58,183 bases of DNA from positions 1-58,183 of the forward strand of contig DYJA01000034.1 of NCBI GenBank assembly GCA_020723345.1. The letters are read 5' to 3'. Shown in pieces: positions 43,501 through 57,861 of the stretch; within the stretch, counting starts at the first letter, position 1, and the number at the start of each line of letters is the position of its first letter. Position numbers and translations under genes: made by a program. The stretch is from Candidatus Aquidulcis sp. (lineage in GTDB: Bacteria > Chloroflexota > Anaerolineae > UBA4142). The notes below the pieces were generated by a model that was not told the DNA's origin, searched no databases, and worked only from the letters and a program-made list of their open reading frames with translations.

Positions 43501-43511
43501 TCATTCGGCGG
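43249..43511. repeat. Two tandem 118-bp structured elements, 145-bp period
   Basis: Copies at 43249-43366 and 43394-43511 are nearly identical. Each contains hairpins CCGTCGTTT/AAACGACGG, AACCCGAT/ATCGGGTT and CCGCCGAA/TTCGGCGG, within outer arms AGGTGGAAAC/GTTTCCACCT. Between them lie 27 bases copied from the ATPase gene end. The second copy supplies the last codons and the TGA stop of that gene. Confidence 0.85.
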
Positions 43512-46185
43512 TCAATTCCTCCAGCAATTTGCGTGCCCACTCCGCTTCTGGCGCGCGCAGTTCTTCCCACAACGCGAGCGCGGCGCGCGCCAACTCCACC
43601 GCGGACGCGCGATTCCCTTTGCGCGCTTCGACGCATGCGAGCGAGTATTGGTGAAAAGCAATCCAATGCTTGTCGCCGATTTGTTGGGCGATTGCCAGTC
43701 CTTCCCGAAAATCCCTTTCCGCTTGTTCTGGGTTTTCCTCCTTCAATTCAAGCATACCTAATGTCTGGAGCATCATGACAGTCATTTGTTTGTCCCCCAA
43801 TTCCTTCTCAAGTGCTAGCGACTGTCCAAAAAACGTCCGCGTCGCCGCATAGTTGCCTTGGCGCGCTTCAATGTTGCCGAGTGCGAGCAACGTCTCTGCC
43901 ATTGCTTGCTTGTCTTCCAATTTCGCCACGAGAGCTAGCACTTGTTCATAAAACTTCTGCGCTGCCGCATAGTTGCCTTGATATGATTCGATGTGTCCGA
44001 GTGCGAGCAACGTCACCGCCATCCCGCGCTTGTCTCCCAATTCTTTTTCGAGTGCCAGTGACTGCTCGAAAAACGTCCGTGCCTCCACATAGTTCCCTTG
44101 ATTTGATTCAATATGCCCGAGTGCGTATAATGCCCTCGCCGCCCCGTGCTTGTCCTCCAATTCCTTGTTCATTGCCAGCGATCTCTCGAAAAACGTCCGC
44201 GCCCCCGCATAGTTGCCTTGCAGCGATTCAATGTTGCCGAGTTCGTACGAAACCCTTGCTTCGCCCGAACGATTTTCTTTCTCTACGCAAAGCGTCTGAC
44301 TTTGTTGGAGGAACTTGCACGCCTGGGCATAATCGCCACGAAGAATCAAAATCATTGCCAGATGGAGTAACGCATCCGCCTGAACAAGTTTATCACCCAA
44401 CTGCTTGCCTGCTTCGTATTCGCACTTGAGCCAAACGATAGCATCCCCCCAATAACCCCGCGTCCGCATAAACTCGAACAGCAATGCAACCACATCAATC
44501 AGCATGCGGTCTTGCTGGTGCGAATGACACCATTCCAACGCGCCAAAGATATTCTCGCGTTCCAATTCCAACTCGTCCCAGCCATCGGGTTCGGAATGGC
44601 TTTGCGTGAATTGCAAATACGCGCTTGCTGCCTGTTCGCGCACGCGCGTTTCCTCGCCTGCCTCGCTCAATAAATTCTGGGCATAGGAGTGGAGAAGTGG
44701 ATGCAGACGGAATCGTCCGCGCTCCGCGCGCTCAATCAGAGCGTACTGCGCCAGGTTGTCCAAGCCGTCGCGCACGTCGTCCGCCTTGTCATCCTGAGCG
44801 AGCGAAGGATCTCGCGAAGGACTTGACGCAGATGAGTTGCTCGCGAGATTCTTCGCTTCGCTCAGAATGACAGAGGCGGGGCTCAGGATGACGGCGAGCA
44901 TCTCCGCACTGAAATCGGGACCGTCAAACACGCCGAGCGCGCGAAAGAGTTTTTGGTCCCACTCGCCCAACGCGGCGTAACTCAAATCAAACGACGCGCG
45001 CACGTTCAGGTTCGGGTCGTCGGACTTGCTCACTTCTTTGATCGCGCGCTTGCGGTCGGCAACGCGCTGCGTCAATTCCTCAATGCTCAGCGCTTTGTCG
45101 GTGAACAATCGCCGCAGCAAAATGTTCAACGCCAGCGGCAAATAGCCCGCGGCGCGGCAGAGCGCGATGAAACTATCGCGCGTGTCGTCCACACGATTTC
45201 CAAGTACCTCGCGGCACAACGCCAGCGCATCGTCTTCGGACAGAATTTCGAGTGAGAACATCGCGCGCGGCGAAACGATGACGAGCGTTTCGAGCCGCGT
45301 CGTGATGAGCGTGGGGCAGCGCATCTGCAAGTGCGTTATGTGCGGCAAATCCTCTTTGCGCGCGTCGTCGAGGATGAGGAGCGCGCGCTTGCCGTCGAGG
45401 AGCGCGCGCACGCGCGCCGCGCGTCCAGCCACATCGGCGTAGCGGGACACGTCTTCGCCGAACACGTTCGCAAGGTCGGAGAGCAGGAGCATCGGGTCGC
45501 GCCCCGCGAGCGTGACCCACAGCAAGCCGTCGGGATACTCGGCGATGTGCGCGTACGCAAAGACCGTCGCCAGCGCGCTCTTGCCGATGCCGCCCAAGCC
45601 GCGCACGCCTGCGATGCCGACCGCGCCATTCGCGCGCAAACGCGCGGCGATGTCACGCAGTTCGTCTTGCCGTCCGACGAAAATTTCGGGCGGCGGAGGC
45701 GGCATCAGTCCGCGCGATGCGGCGCCGCGTATGCTGATTTCGCGCGCGAGCGTGAGCGCGACTTGCTTCGCGAGTTCATCGGGAGTTTTGAAGAACGCGA
45801 CAGTGTGCCGCGCCATCAAGTCGGCGCGGAATCGTTTGATGCTTGCGCGTTGCGCGGGTTCGTCGTCGCGCGGCGCGTCCGTCACCGCGTCGTCTTGCAG
45901 GAAGACGAAACGCGGAATGTTCAGTTCGCCTGCGCGCAAATACTCGCGCTCGGTGTACGAAATGCCATTCGCGTCCGTCGCGCCGTAGCGCTGTCCGACG
46001 ACGAGGACGAGCCAGTGCGACCGCGCGACTTCGGCAAGGCACGTCTCCAGCGGCGTCTCTTCGCGCGCGAAGAAATGCTCCATCCCCTTGAAGTGCTGAC
46101 CGAGCGCGACGATGACTTGCTCGACCGCCTGACGTTCGGCGACGAGATCGCGGTAAGTTGAGGAGAGGAAAATTTGGTAGGGCAT
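43501..46185 (-). CDS. DUF4062-STAND (NB-ARC) ATPase with TPR repeats
   Basis: The 894-residue protein has three parts. DUF4062 covers about 1-95 (YQIFLSSTYRDLVAERQAVE). An NB-ARC/STAND ATPase covers about 165-480, with Walker A GLGGIGKS (Lys202), Walker B RALLILDD and CPTLITTRLE. About seven TPR units then recur every 40 residues (GNYAGARTFFERSLAMNKEL). STAND proteins act as signal-triggered switches, many in antiphage defence or programmed death. At about 453-490 a dispersed palindrome adds SVILSEAKNLA...DPSLAQDD in frame. ATG 46185 has no clear ribosome site; a palindrome lies upstream. The TPR half is AT-richer than the ATPase half. Confidence 0.85.
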   Translation of the reverse strand: MPYQIFLSSTYRDLVAERQAVEQVIVALGQHFKGMEHFFAREETPLETCLAEVARSHWLVLVVGQRYGATDANGISYTEREYLRAGELNIPRFVFLQDDAVTDAPRDDEPAQRASIKRFRADLMARHTVAFFKTPDELAKQVALTLAREISIRGAASRGLMPPPPPEIFVGRQDELRDIAARLRANGAVGIAGVRGLGGIGKSALATVFAYAHIAEYPDGLLWVTLAGRDPMLLLSDLANVFGEDVSRYADVAGRAARVRALLDGKRALLILDDARKEDLPHITHLQMRCPTLITTRLETLVIVSPRAMFSLEILSEDDALALCREVLGNRVDDTRDSFIALCRAAGYLPLALNILLRRLFTDKALSIEELTQRVADRKRAIKEVSKSDDPNLNVRASFDLSYAALGEWDQKLFRALGVFDGPDFSAEMLAVILSPASVILSEAKNLASNSSASSPSRDPSLAQDDKADDVRDGLDNLAQYALIERAERGRFRLHPLLHSYAQNLLSEAGEETRVREQAASAYLQFTQSHSEPDGWDELELERENIFGALEWCHSHQQDRMLIDVVALLFEFMRTRGYWGDAIVWLKCEYEAGKQLGDKLVQADALLHLAMILILRGDYAQACKFLQQSQTLCVEKENRSGEARVSYELGNIESLQGNYAGARTFFERSLAMNKELEDKHGAARALYALGHIESNQGNYVEARTFFEQSLALEKELGDKRGMAVTLLALGHIESYQGNYAAAQKFYEQVLALVAKLEDKQAMAETLLALGNIEARQGNYAATRTFFGQSLALEKELGDKQMTVMMLQTLGMLELKEENPEQAERDFREGLAIAQQIGDKHWIAFHQYSLACVEARKGNRASAVELARAALALWEELRAPEAEWARKLLEELTAE

Positions 46186-46195
46186 CGTTGCCGCC

Positions 46196-46222
46196 GTAGG
46201 ACAATTTTTCAAATTGTCCTAC
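46196..46222. repeat. GTAGGACAA-type palindrome upstream of the STAND gene
   Basis: GTAGGACAATTT and AAATTGTCCTAC are perfect arms with a 3-base loop, in the leader of the STAND gene. Confidence 0.75.
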
Positions 46223-46352: not shown

Positions 46353-48149
46353 TTACGTCTTTTGATACACGATCTTCCCCCCCACCATCGTCAACTCGAT
46401 CGTCGTCTGGTAGAGTTGCTGCCACGATAACGCGTACGGGTCTTCTGTCCACACGATCACGTCCGCCATCTTGCCAGGTTCGAGCGAGCCCTTGACTTGT
46501 TCCTGGAAGAGCGCGTACGCGCTTGTGACGGTGTGCGCGCGGATCGCTTCTTTGAACGTGAGCGCCTGATCCGGCGCGATCACTTGATTGCTCGCGGTGA
46601 CGCGCGCCAGCGCGCCCGCGAGTGTGACTTGCGGCGAGTACCACGGCAGCGTCGGCGAATCGGAACTGAGGCAGAGCGGCACGCCGAGATCGAGCCAGGT
46701 GCGCGTGGGAATCATGCGCTTGGCGCGTTCTTCGCCCAGCGATTCGCGCAGATAATCGCCGAGCAAGCGAATCGCCTGCGGCTGCGTCGAGACGATCACG
46801 CCCAGATCTTTCGTGCGCTTGAGCGCCTTGTCCGTGTTCAAGACTGCGTGTTCAATGCGATGGCGCGCGTCGGCGCGCGGATTCGCTTTTTGCGCGAATT
46901 CAATCGCGTCGAGCGCGAGATCCACCGCCGCGTCACCGATGACGTGGAACGAGCATTGAAAGCCGAGCGCGTGCAGCGTCTTCACCGCGTCGTTCAACGC
47001 GCGTCCGTCCCAGGTCGCGATGTCCCACGCCATCCCTTTGTGCGGTTCGTGCGTGTGCATCGCGGCGACTGCACCGTCCACCAAAAATTTATAGCCGCGC
47101 AAACGCATGTAATCGTCTTCGTACTGCAATTGCTTGACCGCTTCGGGACGTCCCGCGAGTTCGGGATAGTACTCGATCGTGTTCATGATCGCGCCGCGAA
47201 TCGTCATTTTGCGCGCGCGCCCCGCGTCGAAGTACGCTTTCATCCGATCCAAGCCGCGCGCGTTGTTGTCGCAAAACGTCGTCACGCCGACGGCGGCGAA
47301 TTTCGGTTGCGGCGACGTGACTGCCGCGTCCCAGATCTGCGGCGTCATCAAGTTCGCCCACAACTTGCGGAAAATGTCCATCGCCGAGTGATTGATCAGC
47401 ACGCCGTTCGGCTCGCCTTTCGCGTCGCGCCCGAACATTCCGTACTTTGGATTCGGCGTGCTCGCGGTGACGTTCGCGAGTTTGAGCGCGTACGAGTTGA
47501 CCGTGCCGACGTGTCCGCCCTGATTGATCAGCATGACCGGATGATTCGGCGAGACCGGATCGAGATCGCGCTTTTCCGGATTGCGCCCTTCGAACGAAAT
47601 GAATCCTTGTGCGATCACCCAATCGCCTTTTTGTTTCTTGGCGACGGCTTCCGCGATCTTCGCTTGCAGTTCCGCGAGCGTTTTGACGGCGGGCGGATTG
47701 ATGTCAATGTACAGCGGTCCCACCAAGCCGAGCGCGCTCAAGTGATTGTGCGTGTCAATGATCCCCGGCGTCAACGTCTTGCCGCGCAAGTCAATCACTT
47801 TGGTGTTCGTACCCGCGAGCGCGCGCATCGCGTCGGTCGTGCCGGTTCGCAGAATCAAACCGTCTTTGATCGCGAGCGCTTGCGCGACACTATCGCTCGC
47901 GTCCAGCGTGACGACTCTGCCGTTGACGAAAATCGTGTCGGCGACGATGCCGGGCGGGAGCGTTGGCGCGGCTTGCGCGCCACGAGTCGGGATCGGCAAA
48001 GTATTCGCTGCCGGCGCGCCGCTCGTGGGCGCGGGCGTTGCCGTCAGTTTGACGACTTGGTCGCCGCGACAACCGGCGAGCGCGATCCCGCCGACGGTCA
48101 GCGCGCCGAGCCGCAGAAAATCGCGCCGCGAGAGATGTTGGTCACACAT
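46353..48149 (-). CDS. Amidohydrolase (YtcJ-like), Tat lipoprotein
   Basis: The 598-residue protein begins with a twin-arginine signal SRRDFLRLGALT ending in a lipobox (LAGC). It should therefore be exported folded and anchored outside. After a short linker comes the amidohydrolase fold, with metal motif DTHNHLSALG, HEPHKGMAWD and late SSDSPTLPWYSP. This is the amidohydrolase-3 family; the substrate is unknown. GAGGAGG precedes ATG 48149. It forms a tandem pair with a close paralogue upstream. Confidence 0.88.
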   Translation of the reverse strand: MCDQHLSRRDFLRLGALTVGGIALAGCRGDQVVKLTATPAPTSGAPAANTLPIPTRGAQAAPTLPPGIVADTIFVNGRVVTLDASDSVAQALAIKDGLILRTGTTDAMRALAGTNTKVIDLRGKTLTPGIIDTHNHLSALGLVGPLYIDINPPAVKTLAELQAKIAEAVAKKQKGDWVIAQGFISFEGRNPEKRDLDPVSPNHPVMLINQGGHVGTVNSYALKLANVTASTPNPKYGMFGRDAKGEPNGVLINHSAMDIFRKLWANLMTPQIWDAAVTSPQPKFAAVGVTTFCDNNARGLDRMKAYFDAGRARKMTIRGAIMNTIEYYPELAGRPEAVKQLQYEDDYMRLRGYKFLVDGAVAAMHTHEPHKGMAWDIATWDGRALNDAVKTLHALGFQCSFHVIGDAAVDLALDAIEFAQKANPRADARHRIEHAVLNTDKALKRTKDLGVIVSTQPQAIRLLGDYLRESLGEERAKRMIPTRTWLDLGVPLCLSSDSPTLPWYSPQVTLAGALARVTASNQVIAPDQALTFKEAIRAHTVTSAYALFQEQVKGSLEPGKMADVIVWTEDPYALSWQQLYQTTIELTMVGGKIVYQKT

Positions 48150-48161
48150 TTTTCCTCCTCG

Positions 48162-48189
48162 GTTGGGCAAATTTGCAAATTTGCCCTAC
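48162..48189. repeat. GTAGGGCAA-type palindrome between the amidohydrolases
   Basis: GGGCAAATTTG and CAAATTTGCCC form the core. The TAG stop of the upstream gene (complement 48186-48188) lies in the arm. Confidence 0.75.
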
Positions 48190-49934
48190 GTTTTCTGATA
48201 TACGATTTTTCCGCCAATCATCGTCAATTCGATTTTGGCTTGCAAGATTTCTTCAGGTTTGATGGTGTAGAGATTCGCATTCCACACCGCGAGGTCGGCG
48301 AATTTGCCGGGTTCGAGCGAGCCCTTGGAATTTTCTTCAAAGCACGCGTACGCCGAACCCATCGTGTGCATACGCAATGCCTCTTGGATGGTGAGCGCTT
48401 GTTCGGGATTGAGGGGCTTGTTGAATTGATCGAAGCGCAGAACGCTTTCCGTCAGCGTGACCTGGGGCGTATACCACGGCGAGGTGGGCGTGTCGGAGCC
48501 GAGCGCGAGATGGATGCCGGCGTTCATCCAGTCGCGCGTCACGATGAGGCGTTTGGCGCGCTCCGCCCCGAGTTTGTCGGGTAGATTGCCCATCCCGCGC
48601 ACGAATTGCGGCTGACAGGAAATCACCACGCCCAGATCAGCGGCGCGTTTCACCGCGTCTTTGGAACAGAGGATCGCGTGTTCGATGCGATGGCGCGGGT
48701 CTTTGCGCGGGTTTGCTTTCATCGCGGCTTCATAGGCGTCGAGCGTCAAGTCAATCGCCGCGTCGCCGCAAGCATGCACCGAAATCTGGAGTCCAGTATC
48801 GTGCAGCGCCTTGATCGTTTGCTTGTACTGATTGGGATTCCAGGTGGGCATATTCCAACTGATGCCGGGATGCGGCTCGTGCGTGTACCACGTTGGAAAT
48901 TGTCCGTCGATCAGGAATTTGTAACCGGCAAAGCGCATGTACTCGTCGTTGATGCGTTCGATCTGGTTGAGCGCGCGGTCGAGATCGGCGGGCCATTCGA
49001 GCGTGTAGTAAACCTGCGAGCGCAGCATCATGCTTTTCGCATGCGCGACTTGGAGGTAACCCTGAACGGCGTTGAAGCGGGCATTATTGTCGTGATAGGT
49101 CGTCACGCCCACTTCCGCCATTTTCATTTCCGCCGCGCGCAAACTGTCCGCGATTTGCTGCGGCGTCGGCTGCGGGATGTGCGCGCGCACCAGGTCCATC
49201 GCGCGATGATTGTAGAATACGCCGGTCGGATTGCCCTGCTTGTCGCGCTCGATGACGCCGCCTTCGGGATTGCGCGTCTGCGCGGTGATGTTCGCGATTT
49301 TGAGCGCGGCGCTGTTGACCGAGGCAAAGTGTCCGCCTTGCTGCATCAGCCAGACCGGATTGTCCGGCGAGATCGGATCGAGTTGGGCGCGCGTCGGCGG
49401 ATCAATGTCCCAGTAATAGCCCTGCACCCATTCGCCCGGTTTGGCTTTGGCGATGGCGGGCTTTAGTTTCGCCAGCAAATCGTTGAGCGTTTTCACGTCG
49501 GGCGGGATGAGCGCCACATAGTTGGCGAGCAAGTTGCCCCACACCTGCAGGTGATTGTGCGCGTCGATCAAGCCCGGCGTCACCGTTTTCCCGCCGAGAT
49601 CGATTGTCTTGGTGTTCGCCCCGGCGAGCGCGCGGATCGCGCCATTCGCGCCGGCGCGCAGGATCTTGCTGTCTTTGATCGCGACGGCTTGCGCGAGCGT
49701 GTCGCGCGCGTCCATCGTGATGACATTGCCGTTCACCAAGATCGCGTCCGCGACTTGTCCCGCGACCGGTGGGGCGGTAGTCGGCGTGAGCGCCGGTTTC
49801 GCGCCGATGGTCGGCGCGGGCGTCGCGGTCATGTGCACGCTTGGTTCGCCGCGACAACCGGCGAGCAAAGTCGCGCCCAGCGCGCCCGCGCCGAGTTTGA
49901 TGAAATCGCGGCGAGTCAAATGTCGGTCACACAT
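48186..49934 (-). CDS. Amidohydrolase (YtcJ-like), Tat lipoprotein, paralogue
   Basis: The 582-residue protein has twin-arginine signal [12 protein letters not shown] and lipobox LAGC, then metal motif [20 protein letters not shown] and [12 protein letters not shown]. Both it and the next gene end IVYQKT, pointing to a tandem duplication followed by divergence. GGAAGGAGG precedes ATG 49934. It acts on the outer face of the membrane. The stop codon is supplied by a palindrome. Confidence 0.88.
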
Positions 49935-49959
49935 TTTTCCTCCTTCCATACTACTCAGT

Positions 49960-50119
49960 CTGTCATTTCGAGAGACCATATCGCGAGGTGGCGATATGTT
50001 TGCAGTCAGAAACTCGCGTAGTTTGTAGTGAGCGACGAAGCGAAGTTTGCGGAGTCGCGTTATCCGCGAGCAAGAACGACGGCACTCCGCAAAAACCGCT
50101 GCGTGCCTGACTACAAACG
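49960..50119. repeat. Long dispersed repeat, copy 1
   Basis: The block starts CTGTCATTTCGAGA and includes AAACTCGCGTAGTTTGTAGT, GCGGAGTCGCG and CTACAAACG. Most of these segments recur in the same order at 57862-58008. It fills the gap between the amidohydrolase and beta-lactamase-fold genes together with AGCGGATA repeats to 50176. Confidence 0.75.
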
Positions 50120-51790: not shown

Positions 51791-54163
51791 TCACTTGCAC
51801 GTCAACGTGAACGTCGCCTGATTCGATACTTTGTCGTTCGGCGTGAGAACGTGCAGACGCGCCCAGAAGGTACCGCTACTGCCTGATTTGAAATCGCCGC
51901 TTTCAATCGTTTGACTGCTTGCCGCCGAAAAATTCATCGTGCGCGTGTCGCTGTTCCCGTCGCTGCGTTCCCAACGATACGTGACTGTGCCGGGCGCGTT
52001 CGTGGCCATCGTGCCGTTGAAGTGAAAGGTGTGTGGGCAAGCGCCGGTAAACGCCGTCGGATTCGCGTTCACGCTGACGAGTGTGACAATCGCCGGGCTG
52101 GCGCAGTTGAGCGTGAACTTGGCTTGATCCGAAATCATCGCGTTCGGCGCGAGCACTTGGAGTTTTGCCCAGTGTGTGCCGTCTTGATCGTACGTGACGT
52201 TGCCGCTCGTCACCGTTTGCGATCCTGCCGCCGTAAAGTTGATCGTGCGCGCCTCACTTTCGCCGTTGCTGCGAACCCACTTGTACGTCACCGTGCCGGG
52301 GCCGTTGGTCGTGATGACGCCGGAATAATTGATCGTTTTGGGACAAGCGCCGGTGAAGATTTCCGGGGCAACGTCCGCCGTAACTTTGGTGACTTGGGAT
52401 GTCGAACCGGCAAGTGTCTTGACTTCGACCGCGCAGGCATTGGCAGGCGATTCGCCAAAGGCGTTGTACGCACGGATGTCGAGATTGTACGTCGTGTTGG
52501 GCATCAAGTTTTCCACCGCGCCCGCAATCACAGTGGCGTTGTCGAAGATTTTGAGCGGTTGATTGTTCCCGCGCTGATACACGCGAAAACCATTCCAGTT
52601 TCTCTGTCCGGGTGTTGGAGACACCGGCTCTTCCCACGAAAGATAAATTCCCGCGCCCGAAGCATTGCCACGACAATTCCGCGGCGCAGACGGGGCTTGG
52701 CTAGCCGAGCCGCCTGAGCACGTCCACGTCGTTTCGCCGCGATTCGACGCGAGATCGTTCGGTTCGAGCACGCGCAGGCGAACCCAGTAATTGCCGGAAC
52801 TGGGAATCGACCAATCGTAATTCGTCACCGTTTTTTCGCCCGCCGCGTCGAATTGCAACGTGCGCGTTTCGCTGTTCGTGCCGTCGCTCCGCTCCCAGCG
52901 ATATTTCACCGTGCCCGCGCCGTTCGCGGTGATTTTCGATCCGGCGGTGAACGTGTTCGGGCAGGGACCGCTGTACGACGAACGATTGACGCTGATCGTC
53001 GCGTTCGTCGCAGCAAACGCCGAGGGCGCGCCGCCCGATTTTACCGTGAGCGTCAAACTCACTTTGTTGTTGCCTTCGCCTGCCGCGCCTTCGTCCACGC
53101 GTTTGGTGTAATCCACTTCGACCCAGGAAGGCGACGTGCCTGCCGGAGAATTCGTCACGAGGTTGGCGAACGTGCCGCCGCCCCACCCCTTTGCCGCAAT
53201 GCCATTCGGAAATTCGCGCGAACAACAATTCTTCAGCCCGGTGACCTCGTGGAATTGCCAGAAAACGGTGAAGGGTCCCGACGGAACATCGCCTTGATTG
53301 GCGACGGTGAAGACCGCGTTGAACGGTTGTCCCGCCGTCACTTCGCTCGGCTCGATGCGCGCATCCACGATCACCAAGTCGGGTTTGCCGGGGATGACGA
53401 CTGCCGCCGTCACGCTGACTTGCGCGGTGTAATTGCGCGCGCTGCCGTCTTGGAACACAACGGTCAACGTATAATTCGTCGTCTGCGTCGGACATTCTTG
53501 TTGCTGTTCGTGTCCGGTCACGCCGACGCCTTCAAAGTACACTTCGCGCGCGCCTTCCACATCCCAGCGTAACGTACTGCATTGCCCCTGCGCGATGCTT
53601 GTCGGGTTCGCGGCAAAGTTGACGGTCGCGCCGGAGGGCGCGGCTTGATTGCCGCTCGACGAGACCGGATCGGTTGGCACGTCCGGCACCGGCGCGGGCA
53701 GATCGCCGGGATTCGTCGGATCGTTGAGACTTGATAGCGCGAGGACGCGGATCGCGGCGGGCTGGCTTTTCGTGCCCGACACACCGTGCGCCTGCACCAC
53801 GATCGTGTGAACGCCTTTGCTTTGAATGGTCAACGGGATCGCGGAGGCAAAGGTGGTCTGCCCGGAAGGCGCGGCAATCGGACTCCCAAGTTGCCCGTCT
53901 ACCGCGGACGCGATCGCCTTGACACCGCCCGGATCGTTCGCGACGACGTGAACCTGGAACGGCTGACCGACGCGCACGCGCGCGCCGTTTGCCGGCGAAG
54001 CAATACGAATCACCGGCTGCGTCGGCGCGCCAGACGATGGTTGTTGCGCCGCCGATTGCGCGGGTTGCGCCGCCTGTTCCATGCGACCACGTACCAGCGC
54101 GAAAAGTAAAAGCGCGATGATGATCAAGATGATCAATGCGAGACAGCCGAATAGTCTTTTCAT
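51791..54163 (-). CDS. Membrane-anchored CARDB/Ig/Fn3 multidomain protein
   Basis: The 790-residue protein has one N-terminal membrane anchor (about 5-25) and a long exterior made of beta domains. In order these are an Ig-like domain (SPANGARVRVGQPFQV), an Ig-like segment, a CARDB domain (PDLVIVDARIEPSEVTAGQPF), an Ig-like repeat, an Fn3 domain and two further Ig-like repeats. The Ig-like repeats share CPNTF/CPKTI/CPHTF and YRWERSDG-type motifs. No catalytic domain is present; adhesion or surface display is the likely role. It resembles the next gene in its CARDB-Fn3 part. Confidence 0.8.
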   Translation of the reverse strand: MKRLFGCLALIILIIIALLLFALVRGRMEQAAQPAQSAAQQPSSGAPTQPVIRIASPANGARVRVGQPFQVHVVANDPGGVKAIASAVDGQLGSPIAAPSGQTTFASAIPLTIQSKGVHTIVVQAHGVSGTKSQPAAIRVLALSSLNDPTNPGDLPAPVPDVPTDPVSSSGNQAAPSGATVNFAANPTSIAQGQCSTLRWDVEGAREVYFEGVGVTGHEQQQECPTQTTNYTLTVVFQDGSARNYTAQVSVTAAVVIPGKPDLVIVDARIEPSEVTAGQPFNAVFTVANQGDVPSGPFTVFWQFHEVTGLKNCCSREFPNGIAAKGWGGGTFANLVTNSPAGTSPSWVEVDYTKRVDEGAAGEGNNKVSLTLTVKSGGAPSAFAATNATISVNRSSYSGPCPNTFTAGSKITANGAGTVKYRWERSDGTNSETRTLQFDAAGEKTVTNYDWSIPSSGNYWVRLRVLEPNDLASNRGETTWTCSGGSASQAPSAPRNCRGNASGAGIYLSWEEPVSPTPGQRNWNGFRVYQRGNNQPLKIFDNATVIAGAVENLMPNTTYNLDIRAYNAFGESPANACAVEVKTLAGSTSQVTKVTADVAPEIFTGACPKTINYSGVITTNGPGTVTYKWVRSNGESEARTINFTAAGSQTVTSGNVTYDQDGTHWAKLQVLAPNAMISDQAKFTLNCASPAIVTLVSVNANPTAFTGACPHTFHFNGTMATNAPGTVTYRWERSDGNSDTRTMNFSAASSQTIESGDFKSGSSGTFWARLHVLTPNDKVSNQATFTLTCK

Positions 54164-54243: not shown

Positions 54244-55110
54244 TTATCGGCGTGCCGCATCCACGCTGCACGCGTCGGCGCGCGATTCGCCGGAGGCGTT
54301 GTAGGCGCGCACGTCAAAGTGGTGTTGCACGCCGCCGGGCAAATCGGCAATCGTCCAACTCCGCGCGCTCGCGCCAACCGTCGCTTCGAGACTCGTTTTG
54401 CCTTGATAGATGCGGAACCCGTCGGCTTGACCGGTGAACTGCCATTCGACGCGGAGCGTGCGCGTGTCAATTTGCGTCGCTCGACAATTCGTCGGCGCGG
54501 CGGGCGCTTGCCCGGCGGGCGGCTGGGTTGTTCCGCCGCCGCTTCCAATCGCAACCGTGCCGGTCTTTTCGTTGTTATTCTCGTTCGCTTCGCCCTTCAC
54601 GTCGTTCTCCGCGTCGACGACCGTGACCCAGTGCATTTCGCCGCGCTCTCCCGCCGGATAGGTGTAGGCGCAATCCACGACCCATTCGCGCTGGTTGAGG
54701 TTGTAGAAATCCTGACTGCACCCGACGAGTCCTTTGTCTTTCTGATGCGGATGCCAGCGAATCGTGAATGCCGCGCTGATCGGTCCACCCTGATTGCGCG
54801 CGACGATGTGAATGCGGACTTGACTAGAATTTGCTGCCACTGGCGTTACCGTCGTTTCTGCGACGATGAGATCGGGTCGCGCGGGCGGCGTCGGTGAAGG
54901 TGCGCCAACCGATTGGGGGTGAGCCGGCGCTGGGCTGAACGCCGTCGCAGAAGGGCGCGCCGCCGGTGGTTGCCCGGCGGGCGGCGGAACGTACGCCGTC
55001 GCGGTTGGAATCGGCGCGGCAGGTTGTTCGCGTCCGCGACACGCCGCGGGAGTTAGCATAGCGACCAGCAGGATCAAAAGCAGCGAGTTCTTTTTCAGGT
55101 TACTCATCAT
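54244..55110 (-). CDS. CARDB-Fn3 lipoprotein
   Basis: The 288-residue protein has a lipobox (TPAAC), a Pro-rich linker and a CARDB-like domain (PDLIVAETTVTPVAANSSQV). An Fn3-like domain ends YNASGESRADACSVD. It shares this pair of domains with the larger neighbour, so one probably arose from the other. GGAG precedes tandem ATG codons 55110/55107. It should be lipid-anchored outside the membrane. Confidence 0.8.
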   Translation of the reverse strand: MMSNLKKNSLLLILLVAMLTPAACRGREQPAAPIPTATAYVPPPAGQPPAARPSATAFSPAPAHPQSVGAPSPTPPARPDLIVAETTVTPVAANSSQVRIHIVARNQGGPISAAFTIRWHPHQKDKGLVGCSQDFYNLNQREWVVDCAYTYPAGERGEMHWVTVVDAENDVKGEANENNNEKTGTVAIGSGGGTTQPPAGQAPAAPTNCRATQIDTRTLRVEWQFTGQADGFRIYQGKTSLEATVGASARSWTIADLPGGVQHHFDVRAYNASGESRADACSVDAARR

Positions 55111-55148: not shown

Positions 55149-55274
55149 CTAACGAAAGAACGGCATAGCGCGGCAAAGGAAAAACAACATGCACATCAAC
55201 AACAAGAGAAAGAAAATCCCGCCGCCGCCAAACCACATTGCCCGTCGTCCGAAACGTCGTCGTCGCAAAAACAT
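55149..55274 (-). CDS. 41-residue basic membrane protein
   Basis: The reading MFLRRRRFGRR-AMWFGGGG, then a hydrophobic stretch IFFLLLLMCMLFFLC and a short tail RAMPFFR, has the plan of a single-span small membrane protein with a positive cytoplasmic N-terminus. A perfect GGAGG lies six bases before the ATG, the best ribosome site in the area. It ends in TAG 38 bases before the CARDB-Fn3 lipoprotein start, on the same strand. No family is recognised, and its function is unknown. Confidence 0.6.
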   Translation of the reverse strand: MFLRRRRFGRRAMWFGGGGIFFLLLLMCMLFFLCRAMPFFR

Positions 55275-55456
55275 CGCACACCTCCAGAAATTCGACCGCC
55301 GACCGATGACCGCCGACTGTCGTAAATTTTCATCCGCAGTCTACACCATTGCGCGGGAAATTTCTCAGACTAGAGCAAACAGTCAGCCAACAATTTGCCA
55401 ACAATTCGTCGGTTGGTCGAATAGTCAATCGGTCAACTAGTCAAATCGTCACGCAC

Positions 55457-55495
55457 AAAAAAATCGCGCAGTCGAAATTGAGTTCGACTACGCGA
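55457..55495 (-). terminator. Rho-independent terminator of the kinase-FHA operon
   Basis: A 13-bp stem (TCGCGTAGTCGAA with a G-T pair, 6-base loop) is followed on the minus strand by seven T. It starts 16 bases after the FHA gene stop. Confidence 0.8.
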
Positions 55496-55511
55496 CTAGT
55501 TGACCAAGTGA

Positions 55512-56114
55512 CTAGCTGACTATCTTGTACCCGCGCCCGTGCACCGTCACAATCAACACCGGCTCTGCCGGATCGGGTTCGATCTTTTCGCGCAGACGCT
55601 TGACCAGACTTTCGATCTGATAGTCGTACACCGCGGCTTCGTATTCGGGCCACACGGCTTGCGCGATTTGTTGTTTGCCGATCGGCGCGCCGGCGTTTTG
55701 GTAGAGGAGATCGAAGAGGGCTTGTTCTTTCGGGGAAAGCGAAACGGGTTTGCGATTGACCCAGATTTCGCCGGTCTTGGCGTCGACGATGAGCCGCGGA
55801 AAATTCGCCGCGCGCAGTGTGGACTCTGGATCATGAAACGTCAAGACCGCGCTCGCGACGGTGATTTCGTCGCCATCGCGCAGCGGCTCCGGCGCGGCGA
55901 TGCGCCGACCGTTGAGAAATGTTCCATTCGCGCTGCCGAGATCGGAGAGCGTGGACGTTTCGCCGTCCCACGCGATTTGCGCGTGTCGTCGCGACGCGCG
56001 CGCGTCGGCGATGTAGACCGCGCATTTTTCGGAACGACCCAGCACAATCGGTTGATCGGCGAGTGGGAATTGGCGACCCGCCGCGTCTTGCAGGTACGGC
56101 GCGCGCGGGGTCAT
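55512..56114 (-). CDS. FHA domain-winged helix (OmpR-type) regulator
   Basis: The 200-residue protein has an FHA domain at about 5-95, with the phosphothreonine-binding residues GRS (26-28), SRRH (41-44) and NGTFLNG (63-69). A C-terminal OmpR/PhoB winged helix follows (KEQALFDLLYQNAG...VKRLREKIEPDP...VTVHGRGYKI). There is no receiver domain. The ATG at 56114 overlaps the kinase stop as ATGA. The natural reading is that the kinase's phosphothreonine binds the FHA domain and alters DNA binding. Confidence 0.9.
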   Translation of the reverse strand: MTPRAPYLQDAAGRQFPLADQPIVLGRSEKCAVYIADARASRRHAQIAWDGETSTLSDLGSANGTFLNGRRIAAPEPLRDGDEITVASAVLTFHDPESTLRAANFPRLIVDAKTGEIWVNRKPVSLSPKEQALFDLLYQNAGAPIGKQQIAQAVWPEYEAAVYDYQIESLVKRLREKIEPDPAEPVLIVTVHGRGYKIVS

Positions 56115-57763
56115 GGTTGATCCTTGTATGAAATGCGGAGCGCTGGGCGATTCGCCGGATCGGCTTGCTCGGTGAGGTAAACCCAGGACTGACACTCGCG
56201 TGGGCTGTCGTCGGAAAACATCAGCAACAAGCCGCCGCCGGCGCGCCCGCGTTTTTGCCATCCGACGATGGTTTGCGTCAGGTTCAGCGCGACGGATCCC
56301 GCATCGGGCAAAGTAACTCGATCAATCGGCGTCGAGTCGTAATCTACGCCAGTCGCCAAGCCCGGCGCGCTCCACGGCGAATTATAGGTCGCGGACGCGG
56401 GACGCCACGGCGTCGCCATCCGGAACGCGACGAGGCGACACGGCGCGGCAGTTTTCGCTTGCGTTTCGATCCGCAAGGTCAACGTCGCTGAAATGACATT
56501 TGCCTCCGGTGGCAGTTGCGCCGCGTTGATTCCGATCAAGACGCGGTCAGCGGGGCTTGCCCCGCGCAACTGCGCGCGCGCGACGGCTTGCCCCACTTCA
56601 TCCGGCTTGTCGGGATCGAGCCAGGTGTCCACGATGGCGTCCGCGCCTTCGAGGACGAGCGTGGTTGTTCCGGCTTCCAGCGTCGGCGTCAAGCGCGCGA
56701 GATAGCGTTGCGTGCGCCACGACGCGCTGAAGATGAACAGCACGAAACAGATGAGAATCGTCAGCACGATCAAGGCGATGCTTTGCCAGACAATCGCGCG
56801 GCGCGATAAATTCGACAGACGCGCGCGCAGACCGGCGAACACGGGATTGCGCGGCACAGGCGGCAGCGCGCGTTTTCCGCGTGACGAAGGATCGCTTGCC
56901 GCGCGGATCGCGGCGCCCATTTCTCCGGCAGTTTGGTAGCGCGCGTTTGGATCTTTGACGAGCGATTTGAGGATGACGCGTTCGATTGCGTCCGGCAAAT
57001 CGGGGCGCAGCGCACGCGGCGGCGGCAGCGGCGACGTGAGATGCTTGAGAATGATCGCGTACGGCGTGTCGGCGTCGAACGGCAAATGATTCGTGCAGAG
57101 TTGGTACAGCATCACGCCGAGCGCGTAAATGTCCGAGCGCGCGTCGCCGGGTTCGCCCTTGCCTTGCTCCGGCGACATGTACGCCGGAGTGCCAAGCGTG
57201 CCGCTGCCGCCGGTGATGATCGTCGCGTCGATCATTTTCGCGATGCCGAAATCGGTGAGCACCGGACGTCCGTCGTTCGTGATCAGCACGTTCGACGGTT
57301 TGATGTCGCGATGGACGACGCCGCGCGCGTGCGCGTAATCCAACGCGTCGGCGAGCGAACCGATGACGTGCGCCACTTCGTCGAGCGGCATGTACTCGTC
57401 GCGGGAACTCAGGTCGCGCAAGCGCGCTTTGAGCCCCACGCCGCTCAGGTACTCCATCACGATAAACGCGAGACCATTGTCGGCGTCGAAATCGTAAACG
57501 CGCACGCTGTGGGGATGTTCGAGCGCGGCGATGGCGCGCGCTTCGCGCCGGAAGCGCGCGGCGAATTCTTCGTCGCCGGTCAAATGGGGGTGCAAAATTT
57601 TGACCGCGACGTAGCGGTCGAGGTCGGGTTGGTACGCCTTGTACACTTGCGCCATCCCGCCCTGTCCGAGTTTTTCGATCAGGCGATATTTGCCGAGGGT
57701 CGCGCCGGTGAGGTCAGTCGGACTGCGGCTTAATCGTGACGCGTCGTCTTGCTGCTCAGCCAT
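56111..57763 (-). CDS. PknB-type Ser/Thr kinase with external DNRLRE-like domain
   Basis: The 550-residue protein has a kinase domain at about 26-290, with glycine loop KLGQGGMAQVY, Lys55 (VAVKIL), catalytic HRDIKPSN (151-158) and DFG at 171-173. A membrane span (IALIVLTILICFVLFIFSAS) follows. The exterior domain resembles DNRLRE proteins (ADAIVDTWLDPDKPDE, TYNSPWSAPG, VALNLTQTIVGWQ). It lacks PASTA repeats. It may sense a surface signal and phosphorylate its overlapping neighbour. CGGAG precedes ATG 57763. Confidence 0.93.
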   Translation of the reverse strand: MAEQQDDASRLSRSPTDLTGATLGKYRLIEKLGQGGMAQVYKAYQPDLDRYVAVKILHPHLTGDEEFAARFRREARAIAALEHPHSVRVYDFDADNGLAFIVMEYLSGVGLKARLRDLSSRDEYMPLDEVAHVIGSLADALDYAHARGVVHRDIKPSNVLITNDGRPVLTDFGIAKMIDATIITGGSGTLGTPAYMSPEQGKGEPGDARSDIYALGVMLYQLCTNHLPFDADTPYAIILKHLTSPLPPPRALRPDLPDAIERVILKSLVKDPNARYQTAGEMGAAIRAASDPSSRGKRALPPVPRNPVFAGLRARLSNLSRRAIVWQSIALIVLTILICFVLFIFSASWRTQRYLARLTPTLEAGTTTLVLEGADAIVDTWLDPDKPDEVGQAVARAQLRGASPADRVLIGINAAQLPPEANVISATLTLRIETQAKTAAPCRLVAFRMATPWRPASATYNSPWSAPGLATGVDYDSTPIDRVTLPDAGSVALNLTQTIVGWQKRGRAGGGLLLMFSDDSPRECQSWVYLTEQADPANRPALRISYKDQP

Positions 57764-57861
57764 CCGTTATCTCCGCACCGAGTCTGGCTAGAGTATACAC
57801 AAAGGCGCGGAAAATCGCAAGAAGAAAGAAAGCGTAGATAGGGTTTTGTGCAAGTCGCGGA

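Follow-up and report, generated by a model that had tools for sequence, protein, structure and literature searches.

The window analysed here, a stretch of 58,183 nucleotides, carries on its minus strand two overlapping genes. The first encodes a membrane Ser/Thr kinase of 550 aa (56111–57763; ATG at 57763, stop codon TGA at 56113–56111), and the second a 200-aa regulator with an FHA domain and a winged-helix DNA-binding domain (FHA-wHTH; 55512–56114, ATG at 56114–56112). The kinase stop and the regulator start overlap in an ATGA at 56114–56111, as an earlier note on this DNA had reported, and an AAGGA run is visible by eye 6 nt 5' of the regulator ATG. That note had also called the two genes translationally fused. 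This wording is wrong, as the genes overlap but are separately terminated by stop codons; a single fused kinase-regulator protein is ruled out for the window, and the two genes are at most translationally coupled. A promoter-like site of the pair, TTGCGA-17-TATACT, is located at 57792–57820 (minus strand). Inspection by eye found the same boxes 5' of the kinase gene at the related loci L130, L131 and L133, and equivalent boxes, also 17 nt apart and with the variant TTGCGG, at L134. At the contig end (58050–58183), a G+C-rich sequence of about 50 bp is present twice (by eye) and is perhaps a repeat that broke the assembly.

The kinase domain (56933–57688, minus strand; PF00069, residues 26–277, 156.5 bits) has HRD and DFG motifs, so that the protein fulfils the criteria of a Hanks-type Ser/Thr kinase (domain, HRD and DFG). 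Hydropathy analysis revealed one hydrophobic segment only, predicted to be transmembrane (residues about 329–347; 56723–56779, minus strand). The region that follows it (56114–56728, minus strand) was identified from NCBIfam and from its fold as a DNRLRE/CBM-like beta-sandwich. The NCBIfam DNRLRE family NF033679 matches residues 400–544 (56132–56566) with 43 bits against a cut-off of 34. In one Foldseek search with a structure model of this sensor (pLDDT 66, pTM 0.70), the nearest PDB folds were two CBMs, one that binds chondroitin sulphate (8wab) and one that binds alginate (7vbo); TGF-beta-family prodomains predominated among the weaker matches, taken up to E 0.001, so the fold match alone is unspecific. 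Pfam CBM96 gave no match to the window kinase at E ≤ 1 and was matched by two of the four members tested (best E 0.056). No PASTA domain was listed for the kinase by NCBIfam or by Pfam at E ≤ 0.001, and the PASTA kinase model NF033483 scored 342.4 bits over residues 24–299, under its cut-off of 450. The proposal that an outer DNRLRE-like sensor takes the place of PASTA repeats is thus supported by the NCBIfam match and the fold, but not by Pfam CBM96.

In the regulator, the FHA domain (55857–56048, minus strand; PF00498, residues 23–86, 70.8 bits, cut-off 20.7) precedes the OmpR-type winged-helix DNA-binding domain (55524–55751, minus strand; Trans_reg_C PF00486, residues 122–197, 67.8 bits, cut-off 26.2). 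A Yop-YscD_cpl match overlaps the FHA domain, and neither a receiver nor a BTAD domain was listed by Pfam at E ≤ 0.001. The FHA domain therefore occupies the place of a receiver before an OmpR-type domain, as had been suggested. The phosphothreonine-binding motifs of FHA domains are GR, SxxH and NG according to the available text of one source (PMC1262709), and all are present in the window regulator, as GR at residues 26–27, SRRH at 41–44, and NG at both 63–64 and 68–69. Among 100 aligned regulators, G26 is conserved in 98, R27 and S41 in 99 each, and H44 and N63 in all 100. The earlier description of the domain as one that binds phosphothreonine accordingly holds at the level of sequence, though not of structure. 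A structure model of the regulator, built from an alignment of four sequences (mean pLDDT 54), was set aside as too poor for structural comparison.

At E 1e-15, a limit beyond the reach of single-domain matches in the own genome (best 6.3e-13), 251 of the 298 genomes searched within the class Anaerolineae had a regulator match. So did 113 of 400 genomes sampled from the phylum, class members among them. Most of the listed matches span both domains; as some of those from the phylum sample cover only the FHA part, both figures should be taken as upper bounds where the two-domain protein is concerned. In a contig scan from which 80 loci were kept, the regulators of L050–L052, which are 87, 84 and 75% identical to the window regulator, were aligned over almost their full length, and the others were listed over part of it. 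A tblastn search of plasmids gave two records, each matching the wHTH part only. For the analysis of gene neighbourhoods, 100 loci were fetched in addition to the window, and L227, where no full-length regulator was recognised, was left out, which gave 100 regulators. The loci were hand-picked and are not a random sample: 60 were taken from the better-scoring class matches, and a further 40 from the listed phylum-sample matches (20 outside the class and 20 weaker-scoring ones inside it). The E limit for kinase detection was 1e-12 in the window and the initial 60 loci and 1e-8 in the other 40, and the near-copies L148/L149, L151/L156 and L155/L159 were retained in the counts.

A Ser/Thr kinase is encoded within 1.1 kb of the regulator in 73 of the 100 Chloroflexota loci. 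The gene order is kinase-then-regulator in 16 of these pairs, including the window, regulator-then-kinase in 10, and divergent in 47. For the remaining 27 regulators no kinase was found inside 1.1 kb, and since only three of them (L137, L143 and L144) have less than 450 bp of upstream sequence, most seem to be without an adjacent kinase. Outside the class, 11 loci (L198–L208) have divergent pairs and nine (L190–L197 and L209) have no kinase. HRD and DFG are both present in all 73 partner kinases, and at least one hydrophobic segment in 71. The sensors vary: in the window's clade about 200 aa follow the membrane segment, kinases of the regulator-then-kinase group have two to five hydrophobic segments, and 28 of the 36 divergent kinases of the class have at most 40 residues after the last such segment.

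With 17 kinases in the 6.34 Mb of the own genome, we estimate by hand a chance adjacency of about 1%. The arrangement labels cluster on the regulator tree, requiring 13 changes compared with a shuffled mean of 46.3; none of 200 shuffles was as low, and the near-copies contribute to the clustering. Kinase and regulator distances are correlated with r = 0.896 over 72 pairs (L162, with a 204-aa kinase piece, was omitted). Kinases were also re-paired within genomes, so that relatedness of the species could not account for the result, and in the six genomes with several pairs the true pairing was the best of 192. Conserved kinase-FHA-wHTH pairs with co-varying partners, for which the earlier note had proposed a search, are thus found, and together with the retained FHA residues they support its view of a two-gene system parallel to two-component signalling. 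Neither of the two outcomes that the note had named as refuting it was observed, the FHA residues being judged at the level of sequence.

The junction seen in the window recurs at some kinase-then-regulator loci. With start codons picked by script, the genes overlap by 4 nt in six of the 16, the window among them, by 1 nt in one and by 14 nt in four; at four of the other five loci they are 7, 8, 78 and 537 nt apart, and in L154 the two are continuous in frame. There the kinase frame runs on into a regulator that lacks its first ~29 residues, FHA Arg27 included, possibly through a fusion, a deletion or an assembly error. A PP2C partner was not found on the window's contig; all five PF13672 matches of the genome belong to two other contigs, C66 and C70. 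On these, matches to Ser/Thr kinases, PP2C phosphatases and FHA domains cluster at about 194–224 kb (C66) and about 249–258 kb (C70).

The linker between the two regulator domains contains a threonine, Thr99 (codon at 55818–55820, minus strand), that all 100 aligned regulators share without exception, always exactly six residues past the last FHA strand position. At the other linker positions from 94 to 107, conservation is at most 74%, and Thr99 is kept also in clades in which the flanking residues differ. Acidic residues often precede it, with Asp at −4 in 74 of the 100 regulators and Asp or Glu at −2 in 62. Of eight other FHA stretches of the genome that are long enough, two have a threonine at the matching position (by eye). 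From these sequence features we infer that Thr99 is most likely the phosphoacceptor and hence the counterpart of the receiver aspartate; its phosphorylation is an inference.

The FHA domain could also serve for docking alone, as in EmbR. It would then bind the autophosphorylated kinase, other threonines of the regulator, for instance in the winged helix, would be phosphorylated, Thr99 would be a structural residue, and the FHA domain would not bind pThr99. We regard this as unlikely but by no means negligible, given that it equals the scheme reported for PknH and EmbR in the available text of PMC4601284. The conserved FHA residues are compatible with it. So is a threonine in the wing, Thr190, which is present in 95 of 100 regulators, although a threonine at this position is usual in this DNA-binding family. 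Docking alone is disfavoured by Thr99 as the sole invariant residue of a variable linker, kept at a fixed spacing and retained where its neighbours change.

Alternatively, the FHA domain may read pThr99 of its own chain, whereupon the regulator would close and DNA binding would be turned off, as in a repressor or an anti-activator switch. Intramolecular inhibition of FHA proteins by a phosphothreonine of the same protein is described in PMC4601284, and binding of a phosphopeptide from its own tail by the FHA domain of DgcB in PMC6733907, as far as the available text of each goes. GarA and OdhI are, in addition, among the solved relatives of the regulator. In FHA folds, however, the chain ends point away from the phosphopeptide loops, and for a threonine only six residues past the FHA sandwich the site on the same molecule looks hard to reach. 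Because the regulator model is poor, this placement of Thr99 with respect to the pocket rests on the general geometry of FHA folds. We consider binding within one chain improbable and prefer a reading in which the FHA domain of one regulator binds pThr99 of another.

The region downstream of the regulator gene contains a candidate operator and promoter. A terminator-like hairpin of 15 pairs with a T-run lies directly 3' of the gene (55462–55497, minus strand); four such sites are present in the region, with 4.3 expected from shuffles, and this one has the longest stem. The candidate operator, TGTTGGC-AAAT-TGTTGGC-TGAC-TGTTTGC (55375–55403, minus strand), consists of 11-bp direct repeats (7 bp + N4) in three clear copies, with a weaker fourth discerned by eye. 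Its layout is that of the 7-bp/4-bp direct repeats of OmpR/PhoB operators; a member of this family, PhoP of M. tuberculosis, occupies as a tandem dimer 7-bp direct repeats that are separated by 4 bp, according to the available text of PMC4832192. A −10-like box, TAGACT (55338–55343, minus strand), is found 31 nt past the operator, and the hexamer 17 nt 5' of the box, GAGAAA, is a poor −35, which would suit an activated promoter. A TAnnnT box at 31 nt is present in six of nine operator loci (TAGACT in the window and L130, TAAACT in L131, TATACT in L133 and L134, TAGAAT in L135) and was not seen at this distance in the operator loci L138, L139 and L142.

A two-copy pattern with up to three mismatches has three matches in the window against 0.58 expected; three of 100 shuffles also reach three matches, and two copies by themselves therefore offer little support. 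The case for a putative operator is carried by the third copy and by conservation. At ≤3 mismatches, the whole pattern has a single site in the 6.34-Mb own genome, with one match for the reversed control. When ten genomes were searched in the same way, nine had a match, and 11 of the 13 matches (overlapping matches in two genomes are included) adjoin the regulator, with two elsewhere; the reversed control had two matches in all ten genomes together. Among the 16 post-regulator regions of the kinase-then-regulator group, 11 have a period of 11 above the 95% level of the shuffles, compared with 0–4 for the remaining periods between 8 and 14. In the regulator-then-kinase group, period 11 is above this level in six of ten intergenic regions (other periods, 0–2), where the repeat unit, judged by eye, has changed to variants like GTTAGC.

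A repeat model scores at least 25 bits at nine loci, on eight of which it was trained, in all of them 19–153 bp past the regulator stop and on the same strand. Its best score elsewhere in the 100 loci (984,216 bases) is 17.5 bits, and the shuffled maximum is 11.8. A model built from five loci placed L138, L139, L142 and L135 (31.7–24.4 bits) at the top of 95 held-out loci, the next score being 17.3. No operator was found by the repeat model in the kinase-then-regulator loci L141, L145, L162 and L229; L132 and L136 have weaker, shorter repeats that are visible by eye and lie below the model. In a repeat screen of 13 loci, no repeat above the null was detected in L141, L145 and L132, and the top-ranked repeat had another period in L130, L133, L135 and L136. 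The divergent pairs show 11-bp repeats no more often than expected (two of 47 upstream and four of 47 downstream regions), which restricts support for the operator to the window's group and, with a changed sequence, to six of the ten regulator-then-kinase loci. The upstream regions of the divergent group contain triple repeats of period 14 above the null in nine of 47 cases. Between the divergent genes of L199–L208, an inverted pair, TGGTATAATC ... GATTGTACCA, was noted by eye, most clearly in L199, L200, L203–L205, L207 and L208; it perhaps represents two face-to-face extended −10 promoters and possibly also an operator.

The genes that follow are probable targets. A conserved, Arg-rich 41-aa ORF with a hydrophobic stretch (55149–55274), of the same length in L130, L131 and L133, precedes a gene for a CARDB and fn3 protein (54244–55107), and next to this is a gene for an Ig-like (Big_7)/fn3 protein (51791–54163), all on the minus strand. 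Relatives of both larger proteins are encoded after the regulator in L130, L131 and L133, and of the Big_7 protein also in L136. At other loci, the gene behind the pair encodes CBM96 (53–62 bits, cut-off 26) and DUF11 (L138, L139 and L142), Kelch repeats and a CARDB match (L135), or LysM (L145); the large proteins behind the pair in L134 and L141 had no Pfam match. These domains suggest that the downstream products are cell-surface proteins. Since CBM96 resembles the outer domain of the kinase, the sensor and some of the outputs may, by inference, handle the same kind of extracellular carbohydrate. Farther along the minus strand, two adjacent related amidohydrolase-like proteins with Tat-like N-termini (SRRDFL and TRRDFI, by eye) are encoded at 46353–49979, and one L136 gene matches both. 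A 903-aa DUF4062, NB-ARC and TPR protein of the kind found in STAND-type signalling or conflict systems is encoded at 43501–46212 (minus strand).

It remains conceivable that the repeats belong to another regulator and that the adjacency of kinase and regulator reflects only a shared neighbourhood history. There are no binding data, and the divergent pairs lack the repeats; even so, we find this quite improbable, as the repeats keep their place next to the regulator even where a different gene follows (CARDB/fn3 versus CBM96-DUF11 loci), the DNA-binding family to which the regulator belongs is known to use this layout, and a genome-wide search at ≤3 mismatches finds the pattern a single time. 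We propose that the regulator itself probably uses 55375–55403 as its DNA site, its binding being inferred. The DNA sites near surface-protein genes for which the earlier note had called have so far been found as candidate repeats only. The presence of just one such site in the genome points to a dedicated switch that acts locally, and not to a global regulator.

Thus, the conserved and co-varying pair, its domains, the invariance of Thr99 in our sample, and the repeats with their location, all read from sequence, lead us to an explanation in terms of a dedicated two-gene Ser/Thr-phosphorylation switch, which as a whole we consider likely though not certain. The outer CBM-like domain of the membrane kinase would sense a carbohydrate or envelope polymer, a ligand that is inferred. 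The kinase would autophosphorylate and then phosphorylate its cognate regulator, most likely on linker Thr99. By inference, the FHA domain would first bind a phosphothreonine on the kinase, for docking, and then pThr99 of a second regulator molecule. The winged helices of the resulting oligomer, also inferred, would be brought together on the 11-bp direct repeats 3' of the regulator gene. Presumed activation of the promoter with the poor −35 would then drive the neighbouring surface-protein operon; whether the regulator is an activator or a repressor is undetermined. A further extension is speculative, and we would rather expect it to fail than to hold: each FHA domain might hold pThr99 of the next regulator, head-to-tail, forming a phosphothreonine-linked chain whose repeat matches the tandem 11-bp DNA repeats. 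If it did hold, the chain would be a third route from membrane kinase activity to transcription, in addition to receiver dimers and docking of the EmbR type, and one that Chloroflexota employ throughout the phylum with sensors that can be exchanged.

We found no report of FHA-wHTH kinase pairs in Chloroflexota in the open-licence full-text literature. Ser/Thr kinase-phosphatase systems are without dedicated transcription factors in the account of one review, as far as its available text goes (PMC6213207), and within the accessible open-licence literature PknH-EmbR is the FHA-bearing exception found. The family described here consists of co-varying kinase-regulator pairs from several Chloroflexota families, with changing sensors and one invariant candidate phosphosite, to which the window's group adds a precise candidate operator beside likely target genes. 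How a Ser/Thr kinase acts on a specific promoter could therefore be tested directly, since two small proteins and a single DNA of 29 bp would be enough.

We compared the pair with systems already known. The window kinase shares its kinase domain and single-pass layout with the PASTA kinases (PknB/Stk1/PrkC) but differs in having a DNRLRE-like ectodomain and no listed PASTA repeats (342 against 450 bits). GarA/OdhI and DgcB resemble the regulator in combining an FHA domain with a threonine in a flexible stretch beside it. The eukaryotic Chk2 and TIFA are likewise FHA proteins that bind their own phosphothreonine. In DgcB, the tail bound by the FHA domain is N-terminal (PMC6733907, available text), whereas the threonine of the window regulator, whose phosphorylation is unproven, is C-terminal of the FHA domain and precedes the DNA-binding domain. 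With OmpR/PhoB response regulators, the pair has in common the C-terminal Trans_reg_C domain, the neighbouring membrane sensor kinase and 7-bp/4-bp repeats, here a candidate operator; in place of their receiver, histidine kinase and phosphoaspartate there are an FHA domain, a Ser/Thr kinase and a presumed phosphothreonine.

The nearest known system is PknH-EmbR of M. tuberculosis, in which a Ser/Thr kinase is likewise matched by a regulator that combines an OmpR-type wHTH with an FHA domain, the latter being needed for phosphorylation of EmbR by PknH in the available text of PMC4601284. EmbR (2fez) was also the best solved-structure match of the regulator (3.9e-13), with both domains aligned. 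The domain order is, however, different: EmbR is a wHTH-BTAD-FHA protein of 388 aa, whereas the 200-aa window regulator has the order FHA-linker-wHTH, with no BTAD listed. The Chloroflexota systems are further distinguished from PknH-EmbR by the invariant linker threonine, by overlapping, divergent or reversed gene pairs and, in the window's clade, by the DNRLRE-like sensor.
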